From contig NZ_SOEB01000018.1 in assembly GCF_004365965.1 (NCBI RefSeq), positions 1-64,000 on the forward strand: DNA of 64,000 nt, read 5' to 3'. Made by a program: the position numbers and the translations under genes. Below the pieces are notes generated by a model. The model did no database searches and was not told the origin of the DNA. It saw only the letters and a program-made list of their open reading frames with translations. The DNA comes from Rhodovulum visakhapatnamense (lineage in GTDB: Bacteria; Pseudomonadota; Alphaproteobacteria; Rhodobacterales; Rhodobacteraceae). Of this stretch, positions 46,754-50,192 are shown piece after piece (position 1 is the stretch's first letter; each line of letters opens with the position of its first letter).

Positions 46754-49138
46754 ATGCAAGCTGTCCTGGCGGTTCTCGCCACCCTCCTGATCCCTGGGAT
46801 TGCAACTGCCGAGACCGAGCGTTTCGCGCTTCATACCGACCTCGACCATGTCTGGACGATGACCGCCGCGGCGCTGGTCTTCTTGATGCAGGCGGGCTTC
46901 CTGCTGCTTGAGGCCGGGCAGGTCCGGTCCAAGAACTCGATCAACGTCGCCCAGAAAAACCTGGTCGATTTCATCCTGTCGACCCTGGCCTTCGGCTCGG
47001 TCGGCTTCGCGCTGATGTTCGGCCCCAGCCTCGGCGGATGGATCGGGTTTTCGGCCGATTACGCCTTCTTCAACACACAAGGCGACTGGTCGCTGACCTT
47101 CTTCGTCTTCCAGCTGATGTTCTGCGGCACCGCCGCCACCATCGTCTCGGGTGCGGTCGCCGAACGCGCGACGATGTCGGGCTACATGATCTGCACCCTG
47201 CTGATCGGCTGCCTGATCTACCCGGTCTCGGGCCACTGGGCCTGGGGCGGGCTTTTGTCGGGCGAGTCCGAGGGCTGGCTCGCGCGGCTCGGATTCATCG
47301 ACTTCGCGGGGTCGACCGTGGTGCATTCGGTCGGCGCCTGGGTGGCCCTGGCCGCGATCATCCTTATCGGGCCGCGGCTCGGGCGCTATGACGCGGCGGG
47401 GCGGCCCGTCGCATTGCACGGGCATTCGCCGGTGCTGTCGACGCTGGGCGCGCTGATCCTCTGGATCGGCTGGATCGGGTTCAATGGCGGGTCGACCAAT
47501 ATCGGATCGGGCGCCATTGCCGGGATCGTCGCCAACACCATCGTCTCGGGCGCGGCGGGCGGCGCGGCCGGGCTGATCATCGGCGCGCGCAAGACCGGCA
47601 TCTACCGGCCCGAGCATCTGATCAACGGCTCGCTGGCCGGTCTGGTCGGCATCACCGCGGGCTGCGACGCGGTCACGACGCAATCGGCCTTCCTGATCGG
47701 GGCCAGCGCGGGCGCCGTTGCCTTTCTCGCGCATGAGATGCTGGACCGGGTCTGGCGGCTCGACGACCCGCTCGGGGCGATTTCGGTGCACGGCGTCGCA
47801 GGCGCCTGGGGCACGCTGATGGCGGGCGCCCTGGCCCGGCCCGATGCGTTGATGGCAGGCGGCCGCCTGACCCAGGTCGGTGTGCAGGCGCTGGGCGTGG
47901 GCGCGGTCTTCGTCTGGGCCTTCGGCACCGGCTTTGTTCTGCTCCGGATTGCGGACGCTCTGCTGCCCGCGCCGGACGGGCCGCGCGGCGGGCTGCGCGT
48001 TTCGCGCGAGGCCGAAGAGGCCGGGTTGAACATTTCCGAACATGACGCGCCGCTGGGGCTGTCGGGGCTGGTGCGGGCGATGGCCCGCATCGCCGAGAAC
48101 CCCTCGGCCGAAATCGGCCGGATCGACACCGAACCGGGCGAGGAATCGCACGAGGCCGCAACGCTGTTCAACGGCATCGCCGAGAACATCCGCCTCAAGG
48201 CCGAAACCGACCGGCGGCTTGCCGACCAGTCCGAAGCGTTGCTGGCCGATCTCGCTGGCACCATCGAGGCGGTGCTGGACGGGCGGCTCGACCGGCGCAT
48301 GCGGATCGGGCATGAGGGCCCCTTCGCCCGGGTGCCGGGGTCGATCAATGCGATGATCGGGTCGGTCGAGACGATGGTCGGCGAGATCGCCGCCTCGGCG
48401 CAGTCGGTCGCCGCCCATGCCGCGCAGCTGAGCGCCCAGAGCGTGACGCTGACCTCAGGCTCGACCGATCAGGCCCGCCAGATCGGGTCCGTTTCGGAAG
48501 AGATGGCCGAGCTGCGCGCCGAGGTCGACCGCAACGGCGCACGGCTGGAACAGGCGTTGCTGAATTCGGAACTGGCGCGGCAGGGCGCGGCCGATGCCGC
48601 CGAGATTTCGCGGCGCGCCGTGGCCGGGATGGAACGGGCCAGCGCCGCGATCGGGCGTATCGCCGCCGGGCTCGAGATGATCGACGAGGTCGCCTTTGCC
48701 ACCCGCCTGCTCAGCCTCAACGCCTCGGTCGAGGCGGCCCGGGCGAGCGGCACGGCCGGCGCGGGCTTTTCGGTGGTGGCGCAGGAGGTGCGCAGTCTTG
48801 CCGAAACCACGACCGCCTCGGCCCGCGATATCCGCGGGATGCTGAACGGCGTGCGCGAGACCGTTTCCGGCGCGGTCCGCGAGGTCGCGGGCACCGACCA
48901 CGCGCTGGAGGACATTCGCGGTCGCATCGCCTCGAACGCGACGCTTCTGGCCGAGGTCGAACAGATGGAGACGCGCTCGCGCACCCTCCTGGCCCGTGTC
49001 GAAACCACGCTGTCCGATCTGGCGCAGTCCTCGCGGAGGGTACTGGAAGAGGCGGACCAGACCCGGCAGGTGGCACGCGAGCTGCATTCGAACGCCGCGC
49101 GCACAACCGCCACGGTCGAACGCTACCGCGCGGCCTGA
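46754..49138 (+). CDS. Amt ammonium channel fused to a methyl-accepting chemotaxis signalling domain
   Basis: A 794-residue protein. Residues 1-19 are signal-peptide-like. Residues about 30-405 are a complete Amt/MEP/Rh channel: Asp183 in FIDFAGSTVVH, pore histidines His191 and His346 (SVHGVAGAWG), and LWIGWIGFNGGS. The linker (EAGLNISEH) leads to a HAMP-like helical stretch (about 495-545) and an MCP helical hairpin (about 560-775). Its conserved tip reads DEVAFATRLLSLNASVEAARA and then GFSVVAQEVRSLAE. The channel probably senses or conducts ammonium and passes a signal to CheA/CheW-type partners. There is no C-terminal CheR-docking pentapeptide. The ATG has a weak ribosome site. Downstream is an IS relic and a convergent GGDEF/EAL gene. 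Function is inferred from domains. Confidence 0.92.
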   Translation: MQAVLAVLATLLIPGIATAETERFALHTDLDHVWTMTAAALVFLMQAGFLLLEAGQVRSKNSINVAQKNLVDFILSTLAFGSVGFALMFGPSLGGWIGFSADYAFFNTQGDWSLTFFVFQLMFCGTAATIVSGAVAERATMSGYMICTLLIGCLIYPVSGHWAWGGLLSGESEGWLARLGFIDFAGSTVVHSVGAWVALAAIILIGPRLGRYDAAGRPVALHGHSPVLSTLGALILWIGWIGFNGGSTNIGSGAIAGIVANTIVSGAAGGAAGLIIGARKTGIYRPEHLINGSLAGLVGITAGCDAVTTQSAFLIGASAGAVAFLAHEMLDRVWRLDDPLGAISVHGVAGAWGTLMAGALARPDALMAGGRLTQVGVQALGVGAVFVWAFGTGFVLLRIADALLPAPDGPRGGLRVSREAEEAGLNISEHDAPLGLSGLVRAMARIAENPSAEIGRIDTEPGEESHEAATLFNGIAENIRLKAETDRRLADQSEALLADLAGTIEAVLDGRLDRRMRIGHEGPFARVPGSINAMIGSVETMVGEIAASAQSVAAHAAQLSAQSVTLTSGSTDQARQIGSVSEEMAELRAEVDRNGARLEQALLNSELARQGAADAAEISRRAVAGMERASAAIGRIAAGLEMIDEVAFATRLLSLNASVEAARASGTAGAGFSVVAQEVRSLAETTTASARDIRGMLNGVRETVSGAVREVAGTDHALEDIRGRIASNATLLAEVEQMETRSRTLLARVETTLSDLAQSSRRVLEEADQTRQVARELHSNAARTTATVERYRAA

Positions 49139-49312
49139 GCCTGCGCGCGAAGCTGTAAGCTGCCAAGAAGTCCGCGAGGTGCGTCTGCAGCTGGTCGTGG
49201 CTGTCGTGATGGTCCCGATTGACGTTCAGCGGGAAGACGCGCCACTGGTGCCTCGCCTGATCCGCTTCACCCGCCCTGATCGTGCGGTGCATCCGTTCGA
49301 CCTGTCCGCCGC

Positions 49313-49357
49313 TCGGGAAAAACAGTCCCCCCGGACTGTTTTCCGATCCTCCGAACT
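49313..49357. repeat. Palindromic repeat, family 1, copy A
   Basis: AAAACAGTCC (49319-49328) and GGACTGTTTT (49333-49342) pair perfectly. The flanks CGGGAAA on the left and CCGATCCTC on the right are shared with copy B at 49990-50034. It sits between the IEHR...NHPG and GGQVERM blocks of the transposase relic, where an intact gene has only a few residues. Confidence 0.65.
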
Positions 49358-49476
49358 CCCGGGATGGTTGGGGTTGGTCCGCCGGTGCTCGATCCCGTTT
49401 GCCTCGCAGATCATGTCAAAGCGCATCGGCCGCGAAGACGCGGTATTCCGGCTCCGGGGCTGCTCGGCGAACTGAA

Positions 49477-49522
49477 TGCCCCTCGCCATTGTCTCTCAAA
49501 CCAATGGCGCTCCAATGGCTCG
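49477..49522. repeat. Palindromic repeat, family 2, copy A
   Basis: GCCATTG (49485-49491) pairs with CAATGGC (49502-49508), followed by CAATGGCTC. It breaks the transposase reading after VHTVLTD. About 42 bases replace a single codon of the expected sequence. It shares AACCAATGGC and CAATGGCTC with copy B. Confidence 0.6.
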
Positions 49523-49630
49523 ATCGGTGAGGACGGTGTGGACCTGATAGGGCACGGCTTCGAGCATGCATTGCAGGACCTCCCGGGCCGTCTTCCTGTC
49601 TGCGCCTCGGCGATGTTGATCTGGATCGAG

Positions 49631-49670
49631 CCTGCGTGGTCGCCATCGGTTCGAGACCCGCTGGCGAGGG
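49631..49670. repeat. Probable degenerate family 2 repeat, copy C
   Basis: TCGCCATCGG followed by TTCGAGACC resembles the left part of family 2 copies. It lies at a point where the transposase relic loses similarity (after KRCPVG and before IQINIAEA). The match is weak and partial. Confidence 0.3.
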
Positions 49671-49739
49671 CCGACAGGGCAGCGTTTGAACGCCGACCGC
49701 TTCGGCTTGTCGCCCTCGACGTCCGGCAGGCGCGAGAGG

Positions 49740-49781
49740 CATTCGCCATCGGGCTTGAACCAATGGCACCGCAATGGCTCA
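49740..49781. repeat. Palindromic repeat, family 2, copy B
   Basis: GCCATCGG (49745-49752) pairs with CCAATGGC (49760-49767) except for one wobble. GAACCAATGGCACC and GCAATGGCTC match copy A. It interrupts the transposase relic between LTRSA and SRLPDVEGD, replacing about seven codons by about 43 bases. Confidence 0.6.
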
Positions 49782-49989
49782 GCGCTGCGGTGCAGAGCGT
49801 GTCAGATGCGGGATGGACGGCTGCAGGGCACGGAGGCCGTCATCAAGCGGCAGCAGCGTGTGGCGCCGAAACGCGACGATGGCCGCCTCCTCGGCCTCGG
49901 TGAGGACCGTCGAACGTGGATCCTTAGGGCCGGTCTTGCGATCATCGACCGTCTGCCGTTTGCGCCGGTTCGCAACCGTCTCGGGGGTC

Positions 49990-50034
49990 GTCGGGAAAAC
50001 GATTCACCGGATCGTTTTCCGATCCTCTCCACTC
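49990..50034. repeat. Palindromic repeat, family 1, copy B
   Basis: GGAAAACGAT (49994-50003) and ATCGTTTTCC (50011-50020) are exact complements around a 7-base loop. The flanks TCGG and CCGATCCTC match copy A. It interrupts the N-terminal helix-turn-helix region of the transposase relic. Confidence 0.65.
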
Positions 50035-50192
50035 CGCAGGTCCCGGCTCAGCGTCGCGAGCGACGCCTGCGATCACTGTATCGCGGCTCTGACCGCGTAC
50101 GTGGTCGTGGCGCTTCCGTGAGGAACTTGTCCCATAGGGCCTCCTTCCATTCCTTCGAAAGGATCACACCATCAAACCCTGGGATCGAACAG

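Follow-up and report, generated by a model that had tools for sequence, protein, structure and literature searches.

Fusions of ammonium transporter (Amt) domains to histidine kinases and to GGDEF domains are already known and solved. For Ks-Amt5 of Candidatus Kuenenia stuttgartiensis (PDB 6eu6), the describing paper (PMC5764959) reports that two ammonium ions are bound by Q24, E31, N47, D50, T51, T109 and T112, that F27, Y30 and F34 are the pore plugs, and that the histidine pair, phenylalanine gate and selectivity filter are retained while NH4+ translocation is inefficient. PDB titles among the solved sensor structures, which include Sd-Amt1 of Shewanella denitrificans, read 'Sensor Amt Protein', 'Receptor Sd-Amt1 ON-state' and 'OFF-state'; our searches of open-access papers listed none on Sd-Amt1. 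Here we analyse a 64,000-nucleotide stretch of the genome of Rhodovulum visakhapatnamense (NZ_SOEB01000018.1, positions 1 to 64,000, forward strand; the window), in which one gene encodes an Amt domain followed by the signalling hairpin of a methyl-accepting chemotaxis protein (MCP). The product, Amt-MCP, is the MCP-output variant of the known fusions, and its sequence makes it probable that we are dealing with a sensor-Amt-type ammonium receptor wired to chemotaxis through CheA and CheW.

A preliminary description of the locus, made from its letters, knew of no characterised receptor of this architecture, and we likewise found none among the open-access papers listed by our searches, as judged by titles and the opening of abstracts; nor did we find a bacterial ammonium chemoreceptor described in those papers. 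A 2023 review (PMC10433425) states that Amt domains have been seen combined with other domains, citing Tremblay and Hallenbeck 2009. Because that work may include MCP fusions, we do not claim the first sighting.

Results

Domain architecture of Amt-MCP

The preliminary description had reported an uninterrupted frame of 794 residues, the pore residues Asp183, His191 and His346 and an MCP hairpin, and had proposed a domain search, which we carried out. The frame runs from the ATG at 46754 to the stop at 49138, and the orthologue in genome G680 has the same 794 codons; the three pore residues lie at those positions and are invariant in alignments of 6 and of 29 rows; and both expected domains were found, PF00909 in residues 33-431 and PF00015 in residues 607-773, the latter with 77.1 bits against a curated cut-off of 34.6. 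The protein also passes the cut-off of NCBIfam TIGR00836 amt. The features are as follows.

46754 to 49138, plus strand: Amt-MCP gene, ATG to TGA, a single open frame of 794 residues, with a 96%-identical orthologue in G680
46754 to 46822, plus strand: N-terminal 23 residues, apparently signal-peptide-like, with a predicted local distance difference test score (pLDDT) below 50 in the model
46850 to 48046, plus strand: Amt domain, residues 33-431 (Pfam PF00909, E 2.6e-108)
46889 to 46969, plus strand: helix 1-2 part of the Ks-Amt5-type ammonium site, Q46, E53, N69 and D72 (aligned to 6eu6 Q24, E31, N47 and D50; conservation)
47138 to 47149, plus strand: helix 4 part of the ammonium site, T129 and S132 (Ks-Amt5 T109 and T112; alignment, conservation)
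47300 to 47326, plus strand: Asp183 and pore His191 (sequence, alignment)
47789 to 47791, plus strand: pore His346 (sequence, alignment)
47996 to 48043, plus strand: Amt C-terminal region RVSREAEEAGLNISEH, residues 415-430 (aligned to the C-terminus of A. fulgidus Amt1)
48050 to 48193, plus strand: first HAMP-like unit, residues about 433-480 (Pfam HAMP matches of relatives mapped here; model helices)
48242 to 48370, plus strand: second HAMP-like unit, residues 497-539 or beyond (HAMP and HAMP_2 matches of relatives mapped here; alignment to an MCP model)
48572 to 49072, plus strand: MCP signalling domain, residues 607-773 (Pfam PF00015 MCPsignal, E 1.9e-21)
48743 to 48766, plus strand: hairpin turn ASGTAGAG, residues 664-671, with one residue more than the common AGEAGRG and identical in the G680 orthologue

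The junction between the two halves differs from what had first been supposed. The motif EAGLNISEH, initially taken for a fusion linker, lies in the conserved Amt C-terminal region, where A. fulgidus Amt1 aligns with GLRVSSQEEYVGLDLSQHE and where R415, V416, E421, G424, L425, N426 and H430 are invariant over 29 rows. The HAMP-like stretch proposed earlier is present as HAMP-like sequence, in two places rather than one. Pfam HAMP and HAMP_2 have no match in the protein itself (P0001), and the HAMP matches of five relatives (P0006, L095, L097, L106 and L112) map to residues 433-480, 438-479, 439-480, 441-480 and 447-478, respectively, that of L097 alone passing the curated cut-off; at this first unit the model has a helix at 437-448, a loop and a helix from 464. 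Residues 497-539 are where the HAMP match of P0002 falls (42.6 bits against a cut-off of 25); the HAMP_2 matches of P0002-P0005 overlap them, and model confidence is low at 509-525. Structure comparison says little on residues 437-519. Beyond them the model has antiparallel hairpin arms at 527-663 and 667-793, and residues 500-791 correspond to 225-515 of an E. coli-type MCP model, from HAMP to the C-terminus, with one net extra residue, the scores of E. coli-type MCP models on this part being far below their equivalog cut-offs.

The Amt part and its putative ammonium site

The Amt part contains the features expected of PF00909, namely the Amt fold, histidine pair, aspartate and phenylalanine gate, and the gate residues F123 and F243 are conserved in the alignment together with W164 and S247. 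It scores 313 bits with Ks-Amt5 and 307 with Sd-Amt1 (8qj3/8qpf), against 175 with A. fulgidus Amt1 and at most 109 with E. coli AmtB entries, and in a structure comparison it is 43% identical to Ks-Amt5 over 399 aligned residues. By alignment, the seven ammonium-site residues of Ks-Amt5 correspond to Q46, E53, N69, D72, F73, T129 and S132; five of the seven are identical, and the change from T112 to S132 is conservative.

We followed three of these positions across 139 loci. Wherever a kinase, GGDEF, cyclase or MCP row has a residue at Q46, D72 or T129, it is Q, D or T, respectively (among MCP rows, 24 of 25 at Q46 with one gap, and 25 of 25 at both D72 and T129). Transporter-type rows (L042-L060) have A, L and S in 19 of the 19 fetched, rows drawn from a much longer list, the split among stand-alone Amts having followed how rows were fetched. 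In a quick tree built from 122 Amt domains, a single group of 89 rows (97 in the Shimodaira-Hasegawa-like approximate likelihood-ratio test, SH-aLRT) takes in every fused row and three stand-alone ones. On its sequence, Amt-MCP belongs with the Amts whose fused outputs are kinase, GGDEF/EAL, cyclase or MCP domains.

The same survey turned up 27 stand-alone Amts (L085 and L121-L172; a tree group), many of them from Desulfobacterales, that have a Ks-Amt5-type ammonium site and no output domain; they may be either transporters or sensors that act in trans. Genomes G200 and G141 each have paired adjacent stand-alone sensor-type Amt genes (L037, L038 and their neighbours).

The signalling hairpin and the chemotaxis genes

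The hairpin turn of Amt-MCP, ASGTAGAGF, is one residue longer than the canonical AGExGxGF, a sequence that is usual rather than defining. Turn length, counted by eye, is normal in 20 of 23 aligned Amt-MCPs, and the three inserts all fall within the clade of the window protein (+1 here, +6 in L033, +3 in L034), whose sister L032 has none; L181 and L190 also have turns of normal length (L190 by eye). So do those 15 other MCPs of the same genome whose tip can be read, as well as 39 of 39 control MCPs, a fortieth control locus without a tip (L226) having been dropped. The tip residues commonly taken to contact CheA and CheW are kept in Amt-MCP.

A second unexpected feature, besides the turn, is the scarcity of consensus methylation motifs. 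The strict consensus, [ASTG]2-x2-[EQ]2-x2-[ASTG]2, was scored in two windows on the hairpin arms. Of 23 Amt-MCPs, 1 carries it, the one from Bacillota, versus 31 of 39 other MCPs hand-picked across 11 Amt-MCP genomes (Fisher p 3.6e-9, ignoring relatedness); shuffled arms lead one to expect 1.3 Amt-MCPs with the motif. The scoring excluded L190, and L035 and L036 are without most of the C-terminal arm. The protein of the window has no strict motif in either arm window and one loose match, and 13 of the 15 other MCPs of its genome have the strict motif there; L181 and L176 have none either. A looser pattern narrows the gap to 35 of 39 other MCPs versus 11 of 23 Amt-MCPs, the window protein among the latter. 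Because the strict motif is absent from its arm windows, we call the protein a chemoreceptor without claiming that it is methyl-accepting. Lacking consensus motifs, Amt-MCP itself may not adapt, and methylation sites outside the consensus are possible in these proteins.

The machinery that such a receptor would address is encoded in the same genome, which has three full CheA proteins (with Hpt, dimerisation, ATPase and CheW domains), 11 CheW domains, CheR, CheB, CheD and FliG. Across Amt-MCP genomes the CheA dimerisation domain was found in 22 of the 22 tested (of 27), versus 7 of 14 control genomes, and FliG in 11 of 13. In a Rhodospira metagenome-assembled genome (MAG), CheY, CheB and CheR genes lie upstream of the Amt-MCP gene with one open reading frame (ORF) between. 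The receptor without a periplasmic ligand-binding domain that had been proposed from the letters thus has chemotaxis machinery encoded alongside it in the genome, and its most likely role is to sense ammonium for CheA/CheW. Three failures that could have undone this proposal do not occur: the MCPsignal match is significant, the orthologue contains no frameshift, and CheA and CheW are present in the genome.

Weighing receptor, transporter and other outputs

Several observations weigh against an ammonium receptor wired to chemotaxis. Within the Amt part, F73 replaces T51 of Ks-Amt5, and of its pore plugs F27 alone is kept (as F49, one of three), Y30 and F34 being L52 and Q56; PDB entry 8qpf is titled Ammonium Transporter Amt1 from Shewanella denitrificans; and Q, D and T also occur in 31 of 31 other stand-alone Amts, those of the sensor group. 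On the output side, G417 (L068) and G1021 (L190), two of the 13 genomes tested, have CheA and no FliG match, no che gene was recognised beside Amt-MCP in the window, and the altered turn could weaken CheA/CheW binding.

The claim that the ammonium site proves sensing is weakened by the 31 stand-alone proteins that carry the same site; because they share it, the site marks the sensor group and is no proof of sensing. The differences at the plugs bear on another account, in which Amt-MCP would be a transceptor, carrying ammonium through its pore fast enough to be useful and reporting the flux to a chemotaxis array. The loss of two of the three plugs (L52, Q56), the retention of the histidine pair, F123, F243, W164 and S247, and the title of 8qpf all fit such a protein. 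We nevertheless consider it quite unlikely, given that Ks-Amt5 translocates inefficiently with the same motifs, that the extra cation site is mostly retained and that the genome encodes a separate ordinary Amt. The preliminary description had argued from the kept pore histidines to combined transport and signalling, an argument that we reject: Ks-Amt5 has these histidines and hardly transports, so their retention does not speak for transport, and Amt-MCP shares five of the seven extra-site residues. By analogy, efficient ammonium transport by Amt-MCP is probably not to be expected. With two pore plugs differing, the comparison of sequences also leads us not to class it as a functional copy of Ks-Amt5.

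The sensor reading leaves room for an output other than the flagellum, through a chemosensory system serving another process or through a receptor that fits poorly into arrays and has little effect on CheA. This is suggested by the three CheA clusters of the genome, the inserts (+1, +3 and +6) found at the hairpin turn within the clade of the window protein, the consensus methylation motif missing from its arm windows, G1021 with its CheA and no FliG match, and the c-di-GMP, cyclase and kinase outputs fed by related Amt fusions; in G1021 and G417 the chemosensory pathway may indeed be non-flagellar. For the window protein we hold it to be unlikely, if worth keeping in mind, as its own genome has FliG, 20 of 23 aligned Amt-MCPs have a turn of normal length and the tip residues commonly assigned to CheA/CheW contact are kept. 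An ammonium receptor acting on chemotaxis is the reading that we carry forward.

Orthologue and selection

Genome G680, of the same genus, has a syntenic orthologue that is 96% identical over 794 codons with no frameshift. The ratio of nonsynonymous to synonymous substitution rates (dN/dS) between the two, a single genome pair, is 0.157 for the Amt part, 0.071 for the HAMP-like part, 0.053 for the MCP part and 0.105 overall, which shows, as far as sequences of one pair can, purifying selection on both the Amt and the MCP parts. Gene mobility was entertained on the strength of 34% upstream identity in G680 and rejected: that value came from an ungapped comparison, and alignment gave 93% identity across 7.5 kb.

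In the genus sample, 3 of 16 genomes match at E up to 1e-62 (own, G680 and G683), and the Amt-MCP architecture is confined to the first two, the Amt of G683 being fused to GGDEF and EAL. Such rarity, 2 of 16 genus genomes, is what an assembly artefact or a decaying gene might produce. The chance of that is practically nil: the frame is open in two genomes, dN/dS is 0.105 and at least 27 loci have the same architecture, and the existence of the G680 orthologue already refutes it.

Distribution and modularity

A genome survey, also suggested by the preliminary description, found the architecture at no fewer than 27 loci (one with a broken frame), mostly in Alphaproteobacteria. All Amt-MCP counts are lower bounds, and the genome samples partly overlap. 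In the family sample there are at least 6 among 295 genomes (own, G252, G127, G024, G056 and G017), with 30 fetched loci classed and the further matches listed ending by query residue 456; in the class sample (E up to 1e-100), at least 5 among 385 (own, G582, G417, G328 and G503), 4 of the 34 matches listed being without a locus and not classed; and in the phylum sample (E up to 1e-120), at least 3 among 398 (own, G824 and G1021). Among named genomes, at least 16 of the best 80 loci are Amt-MCPs, one with a broken frame, and hosts include Roseospirillum parvum, Terasakiella pusilla, T. brassicae, Rhodobium orientis and Roseibium aestuarii as well as the distant Vibrio sinus, Neiella litorisoli and Salibacterium qingdaonense (Bacillota). 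L098 and L130 were excluded as presumed copies of L068 and L036 (equal lengths and scores), and L101, whose frame is apparently broken in the assembly (coverage versus a 575-residue frame), was counted only. The architecture is rare, present in roughly 1-2% of the genomes sampled, and widely spread.

Sorted by output with local phmmer and seeds, duplicates included, the 139 loci comprise 25 MCP and 1 broken-frame, 36 kinase, 21 GGDEF-EAL, 3 GGDEF, 1 cyclase, 2 other and 50 without output (19 transporter-type, 31 sensor-type). Pfam confirms the MCP domain in P0002-P0006 and ten further relatives, and finds a hybrid kinase in P0007, PAS-GGDEF-EAL in P0008 and a cyclase in P0009. On the tree the output label changes 13 times over 8 groups, or 12 if the broken-frame row counts as MCP, and MCP output accounts for 5 changes, at least 2 of them forced by starred branches. 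The window protein groups with L032 (96) and then with L033 and L034 (99); several branches are long and the deeper joins unsure. Among the other outputs, L039 joins a sensor Amt to an adenylate/guanylate cyclase domain (PF00211, E 5.4e-52).

Genomic neighbourhood

The Amt-MCP gene ends a run with hydantoinase A, an isocitrate/isopropylmalate-dehydrogenase-type enzyme and an aldehyde dehydrogenase, and a gene for a GGDEF-EAL protein lies 1 kb downstream, facing it. Ahead of Amt-MCP, positions 25000-46700 of the window hold a long catabolic/transport-like run (by eye; hydantoinase A by Pfam), and L096 has, beside its own Amt-MCP, a weak Asp/Glu/hydantoin racemase match that at 27.4 bits stays under the cut-off of 31. 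Hypothetically, catabolism that releases ammonium might be linked to the receptor. About 1 kb without a clear gene follows at 49140-50190; because the G680 counterpart has an integrase/transposase-like ORF (L178:10973-11407, by eye), an insertion-sequence scar is likely there.

The separate ordinary Amt of the genome is a 460-residue frame on contig C2. No PII gene was seen near it with the short patterns used, and sigma-54 -24/-12-like sites in the window number 63 against 64.4 expected, no excess; neither result was used as evidence. In the 360 bases before the Amt-MCP gene the best sigma-54 match has 2 mismatches and lies 300 bases upstream, inside the preceding gene.

Other chemosensory genes were noticed in passing. 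A Micavibrio MAG has a nitrate/nitrite-sensing (NIT) MCP upstream of its Amt-MCP (L102:1558-3711). In the Rhodovulum genome, contig C19 encodes a cytoplasmic-looking MCP with five PAS stretches by Pfam (L063:3822-6629), directly followed by a 530-residue frame with three CheW domains (L063:6626-8218), a possible triple-CheW scaffold, and contig C20 has a 643-residue frame with a weak, degenerate MCP-like stretch near a che cluster (L020; 21.6 bits, below the cut-off).

Discussion

By analogy with Ks-Amt5 and Tsr, from the binding step onward, the protein could work as follows. Ammonium would pass the selectivity filter and be held at the intramembrane site (Q46, E53, N69, D72, T129 and S132) rather than be conducted efficiently; as has been suggested of Ks-Amt5, occupancy of the site would shift loop 5 together with residues 415-430, the C-terminal region of the Amt; and the HAMP-like units would convert this shift into a changed packing of the MCP hairpin, whose tip would join a CheA/CheW array and alter kinase activity, giving ammonium taxis. 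If, lacking consensus methylation motifs, it has no CheR/CheB adaptation of its own, the receptor would either report absolute ammonium or borrow adaptation from neighbouring receptors.

Amts are trimers and MCPs are dimers. Because the two differ in symmetry, chains of different trimers must pair, and two Amt trimers per trimer of dimers would be one fitting stoichiometry. The puzzle of a trimeric membrane sensor that signals through dimeric rods is latent already in Ks-Amt5 and Sd-Amt1, and it is sharpest in Amt-MCP because MCP arrays have a fixed lattice. Going further, Amt-MCPs might be a distinct class of chemoreceptor, in which a trimeric channel-like sensor on dimeric rods imposes an array geometry unlike that of Tsr and Tar and feeds absolute ammonium, free of methylation, into an adapting array, with the turn retuned for a dedicated CheA/CheW partner in the family of the window protein; this is a speculative picture that we would bet against.

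Amt-MCP makes the question of ammonium chemoreception testable through one gene, and a receptor without adaptation of its own predicts, in a way that can be checked, the near-absence of consensus methylation motifs across Amt-MCPs.

Set beside known systems, Amt-MCP has the fold and pore motifs of AmtB-type transporters, which differ in having no output domain and in lacking Q46, D72 and T129 (A, L and S in the 19 fetched rows). With Ks-Amt5 (6eu6; PMC5764959) it shares a sensor-type Amt, the pore motifs and the Q, E, N, D and T of the site; unlike Ks-Amt5, which signals through a histidine kinase and has no HAMP according to its authors, it has two HAMP-like units and an MCP hairpin, and plugs Y30 and F34 are not common to the two. 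Sd-Amt1 (8qj3, 8qj4 and 8qpf) resembles it as a sensor-type Amt with a C-terminal signalling domain, but the 8qj3 chain matches an Amt-GGDEF protein over almost its full length, and not an MCP. With E. coli Tsr and Tar it has in common HAMP-like sequence plus a hairpin, equal in length within one residue (500-791 versus 225-515 of the model), whereas an Amt replaces the periplasmic ligand domain, the turn is altered and the arm windows have no consensus methylation motif. Aer, the E. coli aerotaxis receptor, signals as a chemoreceptor without methylation, as Amt-MCP perhaps does, through a cytoplasmic PAS-FAD sensor that is unlike the channel fold of Amt-MCP.

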